Source: Cuniculiplasma divulgatum
GTDB taxonomy: Archaea; Thermoplasmatota; Thermoplasmata; Thermoplasmatales; Thermoplasmataceae
Direction of reading: 5' to 3'
Length of the DNA: 64,000 bases
Assembly: GCA_031200235.1 (NCBI GenBank)
Contig: CP133595.1
Span: 310,001 to 374,000, forward strand
Positions within the stretch are counted from its first letter, which is position 1; each line of letters begins with the position of its first letter. Shown here piece after piece: positions 30,703 to 34,059 of the stretch. Both the position numbers and the translations under genes were made by a program. The notes under the pieces are model-generated. The model saw only the letters and a list, made by a program, of their open reading frames with translations, did not search any database and was not told where the DNA came from.

Positions 30703-32271
30703 CTATTCAACATTTTCCTTAATATCTCTCAATTTACGCTCCTTCATATGCTCCGACTTCAGCCGTCCAAGTGCATAATCAGATGTGTCCACAAATTTGA
30801 GCATGGAAGATAGCTCAGGATGGACTGCCTTCACGGCATCATACATGTCAGATGCTATTCGTCTCAGATCATAGTGAGCCTGGGGAGTGGACCTGAGCTC
30901 ACAGAAAAATGCCAGTTCCTTCAGGTTCAGGTAAGCCGAGACCGGATACCTGTAGGCGTATGGAACCGAGTACTGGGCAACCATGGGCCCATCCTTCTTC
31001 ACGATTGCTTTCCACAGTTCCTTGCCTTTCTGCATCAGCTCATGGAATTCTGCTGAATCCTGGAACAGATCGGGGGTGTCATAACCATATAGCGCGGTGA
31101 GAGGTTTTCTTACAATGCTGATGAACCTGTGCCTCTGAAGGTCCCTGAATGCACCATAGTTTGTATTGATCTGGAAGAGATACCATACGGTCTCAAAGGC
31201 CCTGTGCAGCTTATGCCTCCGGTTTTCCCTCATATCGGCAAGGCGCCTTATTTTTTCACCCAGCATATGGTCCTGCATTTCTCCATTGGAAAGCATCAGG
31301 GTCTGAAGATCGCCGTATCCGCACGAGAATTCATAAATGGAGACGGCCCGGATCAGTGCCTTTCTCCGATCATCAGATTCCAGGAGAGTTACAGTTTTTG
31401 GCTGCGCTGGGGCTTCAAGATCCGGATTAGCAGTGAAATTGGCCAACCCTGACATGTAACGCGTGAGCTCCTTCCCATGATCTGAGACTGCAGATTTGAG
31501 CAGTTCCGGTAGTTCTGTGCTGAGTTCGAAATATAGCTCAGAGGCAAGTTTTACCGCTTCCGGAAGTCCTGTGCTCTGAAGCTTCTGGATCAGGTGTATG
31601 AAAGATCGACCATTGCCTGAAATGCCTATGTTTGTCAGTGTGGAGCCTGGAAGGAGAAACCTGAGGTCGTCAAGGGCCCTGGCTCTGACTGCCGAATTGT
31701 AGGATTTTTCCATGGTTTTCCTCTCCATCTCACCGGCATCTGAGATCTTCATTGCAGAATGCCCATCTGAAAATAGTATGCTATCCAGCGGGTATTTCCT
31801 CTTGAAAAAATTCTGTGCCACCTCATAATTCCGTGAATAGAAATCGAAAAGATCGTTGCAGTACTGCTCATAATCTGCCGCATTCTGTCCGGTTATTCCC
31901 ACGGTTTCAGCTTCCATGAACGGGTATCTGCCCGATGATTTCCTGTCATATCTGACATACCGGGATGATTTCTCAAGGAAAGACAGCCCAACCCGCAGTT
32001 CCTCCATAATCTTGCTTGCTATATTGCTCACGTTCTGGACTGCAACCTGTGCGGTCACCAGTTCAGCGATGGATTCGTCCCCGTATTCAACAAAAACTCG
32101 CCTGTAGAAATCTTCTCCTTTTTTCTCATTTCCGGAAAATTCCTTCCGGTAAACATCCCTGATGTCCAGTTCGGATGCCCGGCTGTACCGGGAAAGAAGT
32201 GCGCCCCTGTCTATCATCCGGTCGAGCTTAACCAGGAAAACGTTTCTGTCGTAGTTGGAAAAATCAGTCAC
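30703..32271 (-). CDS. Tandem ThyX-like protein (two FAD-dependent thymidylate synthase domains)
   Basis: The protein (about 522 residues from GTG 32271; an ATG 22 codons upstream would overlap the DUF35 gene) consists of two ThyX-like halves. ThyX enzymes methylate dUMP with FAD and need the motif RHRxxSxNExSxRY. The first half keeps only the end of the motif (ELRVGLSFLEKSSRYV) and lacks RHR. The second half keeps RHR (LQRHRFISIVRKPL) but lacks the rest. So each half is incomplete, and the protein may combine the two or have another role. Confidence 0.8.
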   Translation of the reverse strand: MTDFSNYDRNVFLVKLDRMIDRGALLSRYSRASELDIRDVYRKEFSGNEKKGEDFYRRVFVEYGDESIAELVTAQVAVQNVSNIASKIMEELRVGLSFLEKSSRYVRYDRKSSGRYPFMEAETVGITGQNAADYEQYCNDLFDFYSRNYEVAQNFFKRKYPLDSILFSDGHSAMKISDAGEMERKTMEKSYNSAVRARALDDLRFLLPGSTLTNIGISGNGRSFIHLIQKLQSTGLPEAVKLASELYFELSTELPELLKSAVSDHGKELTRYMSGLANFTANPDLEAPAQPKTVTLLESDDRRKALIRAVSIYEFSCGYGDLQTLMLSNGEMQDHMLGEKIRRLADMRENRRHKLHRAFETVWYLFQINTNYGAFRDLQRHRFISIVRKPLTALYGYDTPDLFQDSAEFHELMQKGKELWKAIVKKDGPMVAQYSVPYAYRYPVSAYLNLKELAFFCELRSTPQAHYDLRRIASDMYDAVKAVHPELSSMLKFVDTSDYALGRLKSEHMKERKLRDIKENVE

Positions 32272-32308
32272 AAAAAAAGAATATGGGAAAGTTGTAAAGA
32301 ATTTTTGC

Positions 32309-32800
32309 TTATTCCTTGGCAGGAACAAAATATACATCTGTGGGGCTTATCTGCAGATTCCTCCGGAACCTTGCCTTCACCTTCATGCCTATCTTGATAT
32401 CCTCCTGGTCTGCACCAATGAGTCTTGCCATGAAGAGTGAATCCACTCCCTCAAATTCAACCATTATGAGGTTGAAGGGAGTTTCTGGCAGGAATTTCTC
32501 ACTCCCGAAATAGCAGGTGGTGTAAGTGTGCACCCTGCCCTCATTTGGAAGCTCATACCAGTCTGTTTCGGAGCCGCACATCATGCAGTGTCCTCTGGGA
32601 GTGGCATATGTGTATCCGCACTTACGGCATTTGCTTCCCATCAGCTTCTTCTTCCCAAGTGCCCTGAAAAATTCCGAATCCTGTGCATAACTGTGGATGT
32701 AGTCTATGTCATAGTGCGACTTCACTATGAGCGGATCCACGTTGTATACTTCTGTTCCTTCCTGGGTCTCCGGCATCTTTGCGTCATAATCTATTGTCAT
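32309..32800 (-). CDS. DUF35 OB-fold protein with rubredoxin-like zinc ribbon
   Basis: The 163-residue protein has an N-terminal helix, a zinc ribbon with CRKCGYTYATPRGHC and MCGSE, and a C-terminal OB-fold. DUF35 proteins bind acyl-CoA and partner with thiolase-family enzymes in archaea and in bacterial sterol degradation. Its start overlaps the stop of the thiolase-like gene by four bases, which strongly suggests a complex. Confidence 0.88.
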   Translation of the reverse strand: MTIDYDAKMPETQEGTEVYNVDPLIVKSHYDIDYIHSYAQDSEFFRALGKKKLMGSKCRKCGYTYATPRGHCMMCGSETDWYELPNEGRVHTYTTCYFGSEKFLPETPFNLIMVEFEGVDSLFMARLIGADQEDIKIGMKVKARFRRNLQISPTDVYFVPAKE

Positions 32801-34059
32801 TTTACCGCCTCCATTATTGAAACCGTAACGTAAGTCCCTGTTCCCGCATGGCTGTGTATGAGCCCGCGCTTTGCATTCTTGACCTGCAGTGCGTCGTCCT
32901 TGAAGTGTTTCTTAATAGAGTGCTGGAGCTGCCAGAACATGAACACTGACTGCATGATTCCTGTGGCACCCACCGGGTGTCCTGAGGCCAGCAGTCCGCC
33001 GGACGGATTTACAGGAACCTTTCCATTAAGTGCGGACTTGCCCTCCTCAACGAATGATCCGCCTTCGCCATACTTGCACAGTCCGAGATCCTCATACGTC
33101 TGCACTTCCGATGATGTGTAAGCATCGTGCAGCTCAACAAGGTCAATCTCATTGAGTGGGTCAGTGATGCCAGCAGCATCATATGCCTCCTTCGCGGCGG
33201 TCCTGCCTGCCCTGAATGAGTGCACACCAGGGTATTTGAGATTGCGGTAATCGGATTCCTTTTCGTTTGCCAGAAGGGGTACTTTCTGGAATGGCCTGTC
33301 TGAAAGACGCATGGTATCTGTACCTGTTCCTATGCTCTTGACCAGGACGGGGTTGTCGCACAGTTCAAACGCCTTATCCTCTGAAGCAAGGATGGCAACT
33401 GCTGCGCCATCAGACATTGTGCAGACATCAAGCCTCGTGAGGGGATATGATACCATTGGGGAATTCCTGACATCCTCCACGGTGAGTTTCATGGGGCTCT
33501 GGGCATAGGGGTTATGAATCGCATTCCCGTGATTCTTTATTGATACCTTTGCAAGCTGTTCAACAGTGGTTCCGAACTCATGCATATGCCTCACTGCCAT
33601 CATTGCATAGTAACCTGTATAGAAACCCCCCACAGGGTAGTCGAAATTGGTATCGCTTGCAAGAGCTATGAACTCATTGCCCTTCCATGTGTTCACATGC
33701 GACATTGTTTCAAAGCCATAAACTGCACAGACATCCATCCGTCCCGATGCAACCTCCTCGTAGCCTGCCTGGAATGCCAGGCCCCCAGTGGCTCCTCCAC
33801 CCTCAACCCTCTTGCTTGGTTTCGGTGTCAGGCCGAGATAATCCTGAACCATGATGCCTGCCATCAACTGGCGCTGGAAATGATCTGAGAAATAGGAGGC
33901 CACAGATCCATCAATATCCTTCGGGTCAAGATGGATATCGTTGGTAGCATAATCGAAAGCCTTCTTAACCCTTAACCTGAAGTCCATTTCCGGCGTTGCC
34001 TTTGCAAATTTTGTTACACCGCCGGACACCATGTATACATTCTGTCCCTTGTGTTTCAT
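32797..34059 (-). CDS. Thiolase-like (SCP2-type) protein lacking the usual nucleophilic cysteine
   Basis: The 420-residue protein has the thiolase fold and the conserved GHPVGATG loop near the C-terminus. At the site where thiolases carry the acyl-accepting cysteine (usually CASGG), this protein reads GGGATGG, so the nucleophile is a glycine. The NEAF-type loop reads ELHDAYTSSE. The usual thiolase reaction is therefore doubtful. It may act as a retro-aldolase, as Ltp2-type proteins that also pair with DUF35 partners do, or be a non-catalytic member. It is cotranscribed with DUF35. Confidence 0.82.
   Translation of the reverse strand: MKHKGQNVYMVSGGVTKFAKATPEMDFRLRVKKAFDYATNDIHLDPKDIDGSVASYFSDHFQRQLMAGIMVQDYLGLTPKPSKRVEGGGATGGLAFQAGYEEVASGRMDVCAVYGFETMSHVNTWKGNEFIALASDTNFDYPVGGFYTGYYAMMAVRHMHEFGTTVEQLAKVSIKNHGNAIHNPYAQSPMKLTVEDVRNSPMVSYPLTRLDVCTMSDGAAVAILASEDKAFELCDNPVLVKSIGTGTDTMRLSDRPFQKVPLLANEKESDYRNLKYPGVHSFRAGRTAAKEAYDAAGITDPLNEIDLVELHDAYTSSEVQTYEDLGLCKYGEGGSFVEEGKSALNGKVPVNPSGGLLASGHPVGATGIMQSVFMFWQLQHSIKKHFKDDALQVKNAKRGLIHSHAGTGTYVTVSIMEAVK

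Follow-up and report, generated by a model that had tools for sequence, protein, structure and literature searches.

The window, a stretch of 64,000 nucleotides (positions 310001-374000 of the single-contig 2.0-Mb genome of Cuniculiplasma divulgatum), encodes a thiolase-fold protein that lacks the nucleophilic Cys and is coupled to a DUF35 protein. The family to which this pair belongs is real and unusually conserved, and is named in NCBIfam without a function. Its best reading is that of a C-C lyase catalyzing a retro-aldol or aldol reaction. According to our analysis, there is about an even chance that the pair is a Cys-free retro-aldolase of branched acyl-CoA metabolism that acts on non-steroid substrates.

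Gene pair and active site

The following features were assigned. The basis of each assignment is given in brackets.

32797..34059, minus strand: thiolase-fold protein without nucleophilic Cys (NF004982 / PRK06365.1), 420 residues (ORF, Pfam, NCBIfam, structure model, VIA)
33781..33798, minus strand: GGATGG, codons 88-93; G89 is at the place of the thiolase nucleophilic Cys (alignments)
33118..33129, minus strand: HDAY, codons 311-314; H311 is at the aldolase base place (TcLtp2 Tyr294, CtSal Tyr302), A313 at that of CtSal Cys304 (alignment)
32959..32982, minus strand: GHPVGATG, codons 360-367; H361 is at the place of TcLtp2 Tyr344 / CtSal Gln352 (alignments)
32848..32853, minus strand: Ser-His in HSHAGTG, codons 403-404, invariant in a 44-row alignment (alignment)
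32309..32800, minus strand: DUF35 partner (rubredoxin-like zinc ribbon and OB fold), 163 residues (ORF, Pfam, DUF35 homologue beside 38/38 orthologs)
32576..32629, minus strand: zinc-ribbon cysteines C58, C61, C72 and C75 of the DUF35 protein (27-row alignment)

Pfam detected the thiolase domains Thiolase_C_1 (109 bits) and Thiolase_N (37 bits) in the thiolase-like ORF, and OB_ChsH2_C (56 bits) and zf-ChsH2 (32 bits) in the DUF35 ORF. With 803.9 bits, the thiolase-like protein lies above the curated cut-off of NF004982 (695 bits). The curated name of this model, 'thiolase domain-containing protein', carries no function and is silent on the lost Cys; the thiolase-domain label very probably names a reaction that the window protein cannot perform. 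The cut-offs for BbsAB (benzoylsuccinyl-CoA thiolase) were missed (NF053628, 170.8 versus 750 bits; NF053627, 16.8 versus 250 bits).

The motif around the place of the nucleophile reads VEG-G88-G89-A-T-G-G. In the alignment to solved thiolases, G89 matches the Cys of 6esq and that of 6hsj, which confirms both the replacement of CASGG by GATGG claimed in the original prediction and its coordinates. The HDCF motif of the solved thiolases is changed to HDAY (H311-Y314). The His of the GHP motif is retained as H361, and the loop GHPVGATG is thus kept as had been stated. S403-H404 belong to what we take to be the CxG-motif region of classical thiolases.

The predicted overlap of the two genes exists and comprises the 4 nt ATGA, shared by the end of the thiolase-like ORF and the start of the DUF35 ORF. 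The DUF35 ORF itself apparently overlaps the next gene, whose ORF was drawn from 32337; a GTG start is found at 32271, behind the DUF35 stop, and the overlap is probably due only to the too-early start of the drawn ORF. This next gene (30703-32337) codes for a ThyX-like protein, as judged by eye, which is presumably about twice as long as a usual ThyX; some genomes of family f1 have it downstream of the pair. Linkage of the pair to the genes that follow it in the window (ThyX-like, thermosome) is conserved within part of family f1 only, and this connection was dropped. In the DUF35 protein, C58, C72 and C75 are invariant in 27 aligned rows, and C61 is absent from a few. In some lineages, the DUF35 partners (L050:5520-6056, L051:5460-5987 and L070:5416-5946) lack the second zinc-ribbon Cys and contain a His a few residues further on, which recalls the C3H1 zinc site that CtShy is reported to have.

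Conservation and distribution

Two sets of sequences were compared, with some genomes common to both. The class set comprises 40 rows (38 orthologs including the window protein, and 2 paralogs). The genome-scan set of 81 rows contains the window protein and the best 80 of at least 560 relatives, which were found among at least 589 candidate stretches when GTDB genomes were scanned once with alignment A1. Gly at position 89 and His at position 361 occur in 40/40 rows of the class set. Likewise, Gly at the place of the nucleophile, the motif GG[AS]TGG and the His of GHP are found in 81/81 rows of the scan set with its best 80 of at least 560 relatives. The search for a real Cys at the nucleophile position, proposed along with the original prediction, thus returned none in either set. 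The invariance of Gly in all family rows read rules out a sequencing error, a pseudogene or a local loss, and an ordinary thiolase with a displaced Cys is ruled out because the nucleophile place contains none. Position 311 is occupied by His in 36 of the 40 class rows and by Tyr in four (L036, L038, L045, L049); for the window and the best 80 of at least 560 relatives, His was found in 79/81 rows.

The mean column identity is 54% over 31 class rows and 73% over 44 mostly bacterial rows (the window and 43 of the 47 loci L122-L168). GGATGG (G88-G93) and H361 are invariant in both alignments, and W125-N128 and S403-H404 in the 44-row alignment. This level of conservation and the invariance of the motif and of H361 speak for a strict catalytic role.

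A DUF35 gene adjoins the thiolase-like gene in 38/38 ortholog loci of the class. Among the best 80 of at least 560 relatives, a DUF35 homologue was found on the same fragment in 75/80 cases, with some fragments stopping near the gene. The NF004982 profile matches at all in 292/300 genomes of the class, a number that includes other thiolases, and 43/300 pass the cut-off. Matches below it (approximately 540-690 bits) derive largely from other families within the class; the ones that were fetched are orthologs according to alignment and gene pairing.

The best 80 of at least 560 relatives consist of 36 from Thermoplasmata and 44 with other labels, nearly all of the latter being bacteria. They include Nitrospirae, Deltaproteobacteria, Geobacteraceae, Desulfosporosinus, Chloroflexi, anammox planctomycetes and Methylomirabilota. 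These 44 relatives are 68-77% identical to the window protein, which overstates the typical identity, since they were drawn from the best of at least 560. The nearest named relatives among the best 80 are Thermoplasmata MAGs with 99% and 97% identity. One contig labelled Candidatus Undinarchaeales (L122) contains a bacterial-looking cluster of enoyl-CoA hydratase, thiolase, Gly-thiolase, DUF35, acyl-CoA dehydrogenase (ACAD) and ETF; the label is probably a binning or labelling error.

Relation to Cys thiolases and steroid aldolases

The structure of the thiolase-like protein was modelled by means of AlphaFold2 on the 44-row alignment (pLDDT 85.2, pTM 0.90; residues 126-141 poorly placed). VIA of the model yielded 7yvy (Z 54.5; 1.7 Å over 365 residues), 6esq (54.3) and SCP2 thiolase (51.5), compared to 46.0 for 6ok1, 45.6 for 9myr and 45.3 for 4u4e from the Ltp2/Sal/4u4e group. 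A phmmer search gave 195 bits for 6esq, 119 for 4u4e, 88 for Ltp2 and 73 for CtSal. Among solved proteins, Cys thiolases are closer to it than aldolases, both by sequence and by fold. For example, 6esq is the top sequence match and a near-top fold match and has a DUF35 of the same kind, but it contains its own Cys and HDCF where the window protein has Gly89 and HDAY.

This proximity, together with the retention of both His residues of the SCP2-type thiolase site (HDxF, GHP), would suit a non-covalent thiolase/Claisen enzyme or a decarboxylase. Such an enzyme would process 3-ketoacyl- or malonyl-type CoA esters, either by direct attack of CoA or water or by loss of CO2, with the help of H311 and H361. 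We know of no thiolase that works without a Cys nucleophile. Furthermore, a check of the genome for normal thiolases, as suggested at the outset, revealed three with Cys (at 268209, 995385 and 651717). That at 268209 forms an operon with genes for an enoyl-CoA hydratase (PF00378) and a 3-hydroxyacyl-CoA dehydrogenase (by eye), and further thiolase activity is therefore needless for linear beta-oxidation. A point in favour of decarboxylation is TbSLP, which is also Cys-poor and, according to PMC12329534, weakly decarboxylates malonyl-CoA. On balance, we regard a reaction of this kind as rather unlikely.

The aldolase reading draws on the steroid-degrading enzymes. The JBC 2025 paper on CtSal (PMC12329534) describes a Gly at the thiolase Cys position of CtSal, contact of the Gly89 backbone with the beta-hydroxyl, and the catalytic residues Tyr302/Cys304 in CtSal and Tyr294/Tyr344 in TcLtp2. 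For comparison, the numbering of CtSal was anchored at Tyr302 and matched six other published residues; that of TcLtp2 was anchored at Tyr294 and matched Tyr344. In the alignment, G88-G89 of CtSal correspond to G88-G89 of the window protein, and the Gly-Gly pair of TcLtp2 comprises its residues 82-83. Tyr302/Tyr294 of CtSal/TcLtp2 match His311, Cys304/His296 match Ala313, and Gln352/Tyr344 match His361. In a set of 47 reference and family rows, Gly-Gly at the positions (Cys-1, Cys) was found in 26, namely all 19 family members or paralogs, the six members of the Ltp2/Sal/4u4e group and L241, and in 0/21 rows with Cys, Ser or Thr. L241:1342-2523, a thiolase-like protein from a Rhodococcus plasmid, is a further Cys-free variant; it contains Gly-Gly but F-A-P-Y and Ala, without HD or the GHP His, adjoins an OB-fold protein and lies near an adenylate-forming enzyme.

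The complex of TcLtp2 with ChsH2(DUF35) (6ok1) shares with the window pair the thiolase fold, the DUF35 partner, Gly-Gly at the nucleophile place and acyl-CoA pathway neighbours. It differs by YDHF and Tyr344 instead of HDAY and His361, and scores only 88 bits; moreover, the window DUF35 has no fused MaoC, and no steroid context was seen beside the window pair. Similarly, the bile-acid aldolase CtSal-CtShy(DUF35) (9myr) has Gly at the thiolase Cys place and a DUF35 partner, but Tyr302, Cys304 and Gln352 where the window protein has His311, Ala313 and His361, and the window DUF35 stands alone. With A313, the window protein deviates from the Sal signature YDC[YF] and its catalytic Cys. The likeness to Ltp2-type aldolases that had been pointed out thus stands for Gly-Gly and DUF35, but not for the defining residues (HDAY is neither YDHF nor YDCY, and His361 replaces Tyr/Gln), and nothing steroid-specific is adjacent.

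The 'thiolase' 4u4e from Sphaerobacter thermophilus and its plasmid relatives L237 and L240 resemble the window protein in Gly-Gly and the His at the GHP place, and their YD[SA]F is similar to YD[SA]Y of the window-family members L036 and L038. They differ by a Tyr instead of His at the first motif place, and they group with Ltp2/Sal at 100/100 in the 47-row tree. The site residues can be arranged as H-A-Y/H361 (window), Y-[AS]-Y/His (L036, L038), Y-[AS]-F/His (4u4e, L237, L240), Y-C-Y/Gln (Sal) and Y-H-F/Tyr (Ltp2). At the level of sequence, this natural series joins the window family to the 4u4e, Sal and Ltp2 families. That His and Tyr replace each other naturally at exactly the place of the aldolase base is the strongest hint from sequence at shared chemistry.

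The phylogeny with Ltp2 that had been proposed gave a mixed result. In a first tree of 38 rows, all Gly-Gly proteins formed one clade (96/95). In the 47-row tree, for which the motif columns were removed and more references were used, AU p was 0.434 for the family joining the aldolases and 0.126 for its joining the acetoacetyl-CoA thiolases. Neither placement is rejected, and no single origin of the Gly-Gly proteins is therefore claimed. The aldolase reading is weakened by the base residue, which is His and not Tyr in 36/40 class rows and in 79/81 rows with the best 80 of at least 560 relatives, and by the replacement of the acid Cys304 of CtSal by Ala or Ser. It is further weakened by the nearness to Cys thiolases (195 versus 119/88/73 bits; Z 54 versus 45-46).

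Gene neighbourhood and B12 mutase

In six of the 38 class loci (L036, L038, L045, L050, L056, L057), the next upstream gene on the same strand codes for an ACAD; in L036 and L045 it overlaps by 4 nt. Pfam was run on four of these loci (L036, L045, L050, L056) and confirmed 4/4. In many bacterial loci, the pair is linked to a B12 mutase or an ACAD. In the 44 non-Thermoplasmata loci among the best 80 of at least 560 relatives, the small (B12-binding) mutase subunit occurs in 27, and in 23 of the 44 it is encoded no more than 220 nt upstream, on the same strand; a large subunit is present in 22 and an ACAD in 26. Also recurring in these 44 loci are enoyl-CoA hydratase (9), MeaB-like GTPase (7), AMP-ligase (7), 3-hydroxyacyl-CoA dehydrogenase (6), Cys thiolase (6), CoA-transferase-like genes (4; by eye, no NCBIfam match) and ETF genes (2; by eye). 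No hydratase lies beside the window gene. For the 36 Thermoplasmata loci of the best 80 of at least 560, a mutase was found in 0 and an ACAD in 3; these numbers, the lack of a hydratase beside the window gene and the fact that the mutase link is not exclusive weaken the reading as a lyase of branched acyl-CoA metabolism.

The large subunit, analysed for one representative, is nearest to 2-hydroxyisobutyryl-CoA mutase (4r3u, 604 bits), followed by methylmalonyl-CoA mutase (507 bits). At the two specificity places, which we located with 5req, presumably a Tyr89Phe mutant, Phe was found in 18/18 and Gln in 19/19 readable cases of 20; methylmalonyl-CoA mutase has Tyr and Arg. We take Phe/Gln (F/Q) to be the isobutyryl-CoA-mutase signature. 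Among 17 genomes with a mutase-free locus, drawn from the best 80 of at least 560, 11 encode an F/Q mutase elsewhere, two a fused IcmF-like mutase (open frames of 1089 and 1095 residues, Gln at the second specificity place), one a Tyr/Arg mutase only, one an unreadable mutase fragment and two none. At 622958, unlinked to the pair, the window genome contains an F/Q mutase that is accompanied by a small subunit and a MeaB-like gene (by eye).

Counted by hand, 130 of the 131 ortholog-containing class genomes have a mutase match (best E <=1e-120; all but G137), compared to 63 of the 169 others. This co-occurrence is weak support, as the relatedness of the genomes and the presence of Tyr/Arg (methylmalonyl-type) mutases confound it, and class genomes without an NF004982-family gene can also contain F/Q mutases. 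Because of the latter, the tie to the mutase is strong but one-way. The description of a known isobutyryl-CoA mutase cluster in passages of PMC5017805 mentions no thiolase-like gene of this kind. Papers on isobutyryl-CoA mutase, Ltp2, Sal and the structures of DUF35 proteins were found in the open-licence PMC literature; among the titles and abstract openings listed, none names the NF004982 family or the mutase link.

The neighbours also bear on the direction of the reaction. Aldol condensation of an acyl-CoA enolate with an aldehyde or ketone would be identical chemistry in reverse and could serve biosynthesis or assimilation by a route that uses the mutase. It would fit the anammox planctomycetes, Nitrospirae and Methylomirabilota found among the best 80 of at least 560 relatives, lineages with chemolithoautotrophs, for which little need of branched-acid catabolism is expected. 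However, some clusters contain acyl-CoA ligases, CoA-transferase-like genes (by eye), ACADs and, in 2/44 loci of the best 80 of at least 560, ETF, which is the usual degradative set, and Thermoplasmatales are scavenging heterotrophs. Bond making as the physiological direction is thus given little credence.

Two diverged Gly-Gly paralogs were noticed. One is part of the operon L071:3907-9150 (AMP-ligase, MaoC hydratase, Gly-thiolase, DUF35, AMP-ligase), which is like the hydratase-aldolase pairing described for Shy-Sal; the other (L040:11671-15000) is accompanied by DUF35 and an AMP-ligase.

Proposed reaction

For the pair as a retro-aldolase, we propose a heteromeric CoA-thioester C-C lyase in which the thiolase-fold protein would be the catalytic subunit and DUF35 would complete the CoA/substrate pocket, covalent acyl-Cys chemistry having been given up. 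If the mechanism resembles that of TcLtp2 and CtSal, the backbone of Gly88-Gly89 would hold the beta-hydroxyl of a beta-hydroxyacyl-CoA, and His311 (Tyr in a few members) would accept its proton. The Calpha-Cbeta bond would then be cleaved and His361 would protonate the acyl-CoA enolate, to give a shortened acyl-CoA together with an aldehyde or ketone. The neighbouring genes suggest a pathway of branched short-chain acyl-CoA metabolism with an isobutyryl-CoA-mutase-type B12 mutase, a MeaB-like GTPase and ACADs. Plausible substrates are tertiary or alpha-branched beta-hydroxyacyl-CoAs, derived from branched amino acids or isoprenoid chains, that beta-oxidation cannot finish. The C-C lyase proposed originally gains support from Gly-Gly as in Ltp2/Sal, from the strong conservation of the remaining acid/base residues and, in part of the loci, from the ACAD/mutase neighbours.

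More tentatively, and with somewhat less than even probability, the family may represent a non-steroid branch of the thiolase-fold acyl-CoA aldolases that depend on DUF35, and the first such branch to be recognised. It would then comprise Cys-free His/His (or Tyr/His) enzymes of Thermoplasmata and many bacterial phyla that stand beside an isobutyryl-CoA-mutase-type B12 mutase and serve an undescribed branched acyl-CoA pathway (branched amino acid or isoprenoid), cleaving beta-hydroxyacyl-CoAs beyond the reach of beta-oxidation. If the family members are aldolases, the DUF35-dependent aldolases of steroid degraders make up only a small part of an enzyme group that is far broader and may be older. 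It would then also be possible to test for a missing C-C cleavage step in the turnover of branched acyl-CoAs, perhaps from archaeal lipids.

Comparison with the thiolase of the HMG-CoA-synthase operon

The three Thiolase_C_1 proteins of the window genome all lack the Cys and contain Gly (window), Thr (L072) and Ser (L073) instead. L072:5837-7009 (1067836-1069005 of the window genome) is the 'acetoacetyl-CoA thiolase' of an HMG-CoA-synthase-like operon; the HMGCS-like gene (by eye; ACP_syn_III_C) lies at this separate locus with its own thiolase and DUF35, and no HMG-CoA synthase was found among the neighbour genes read beside the window pair. In 30 genomes of the same archaeal family that were read, of 45 searched (L072, L204-L233; 31 rows, as the window genome is listed twice), the nucleophile place of this thiolase is Thr in 24 and Ser in 6, and the GHP His place is Asn in 23, Asp in 6 and Tyr in 1. 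Judged from these residues, the HMGCS-operon thiolase looks like a dead scaffold, and acetoacetyl-CoA for mevalonate would probably come from another thiolase.

This comparison bears on a scaffold role of the window pair, which had been considered conceivable: a dead thiolase and DUF35 that would hold partners (mutase, ACAD) or bind CoA esters. Such a role would agree with the missing nucleophile and with neighbours that recur among loci. However, the dead-looking thiolase of the same genome has drifted (T/S; N/D/Y), whereas the window family keeps Gly-Gly and H361 invariant, as well as W125-N128 and S403-H404 over 44 rows; furthermore, the partners differ among lineages while the pair itself is constant. 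A non-catalytic function consequently appears improbable. The window family and the decayed HMGCS-operon thiolase of the same genomes allow a clean comparison by which thiolases that were repurposed can be distinguished from dead ones.

Replacement of an HMG-CoA lyase by the window pair was also considered and dropped. PF00682 matches two HMGL-like genes in the window genome; by eye, one is similar to an isopropylmalate/homocitrate-type synthase and the other lies beside a CaiB-type CoA-transferase. The third Cys-free protein, L073:6703-7848, contains Ser at the nucleophile place (NTSGSGG) and is a relative of Sulfolobus tokodaii ST0096 (4yzo). Its gene is followed by one for a 95-residue protein, in which only the DUF35 zinc ribbon was recognised.
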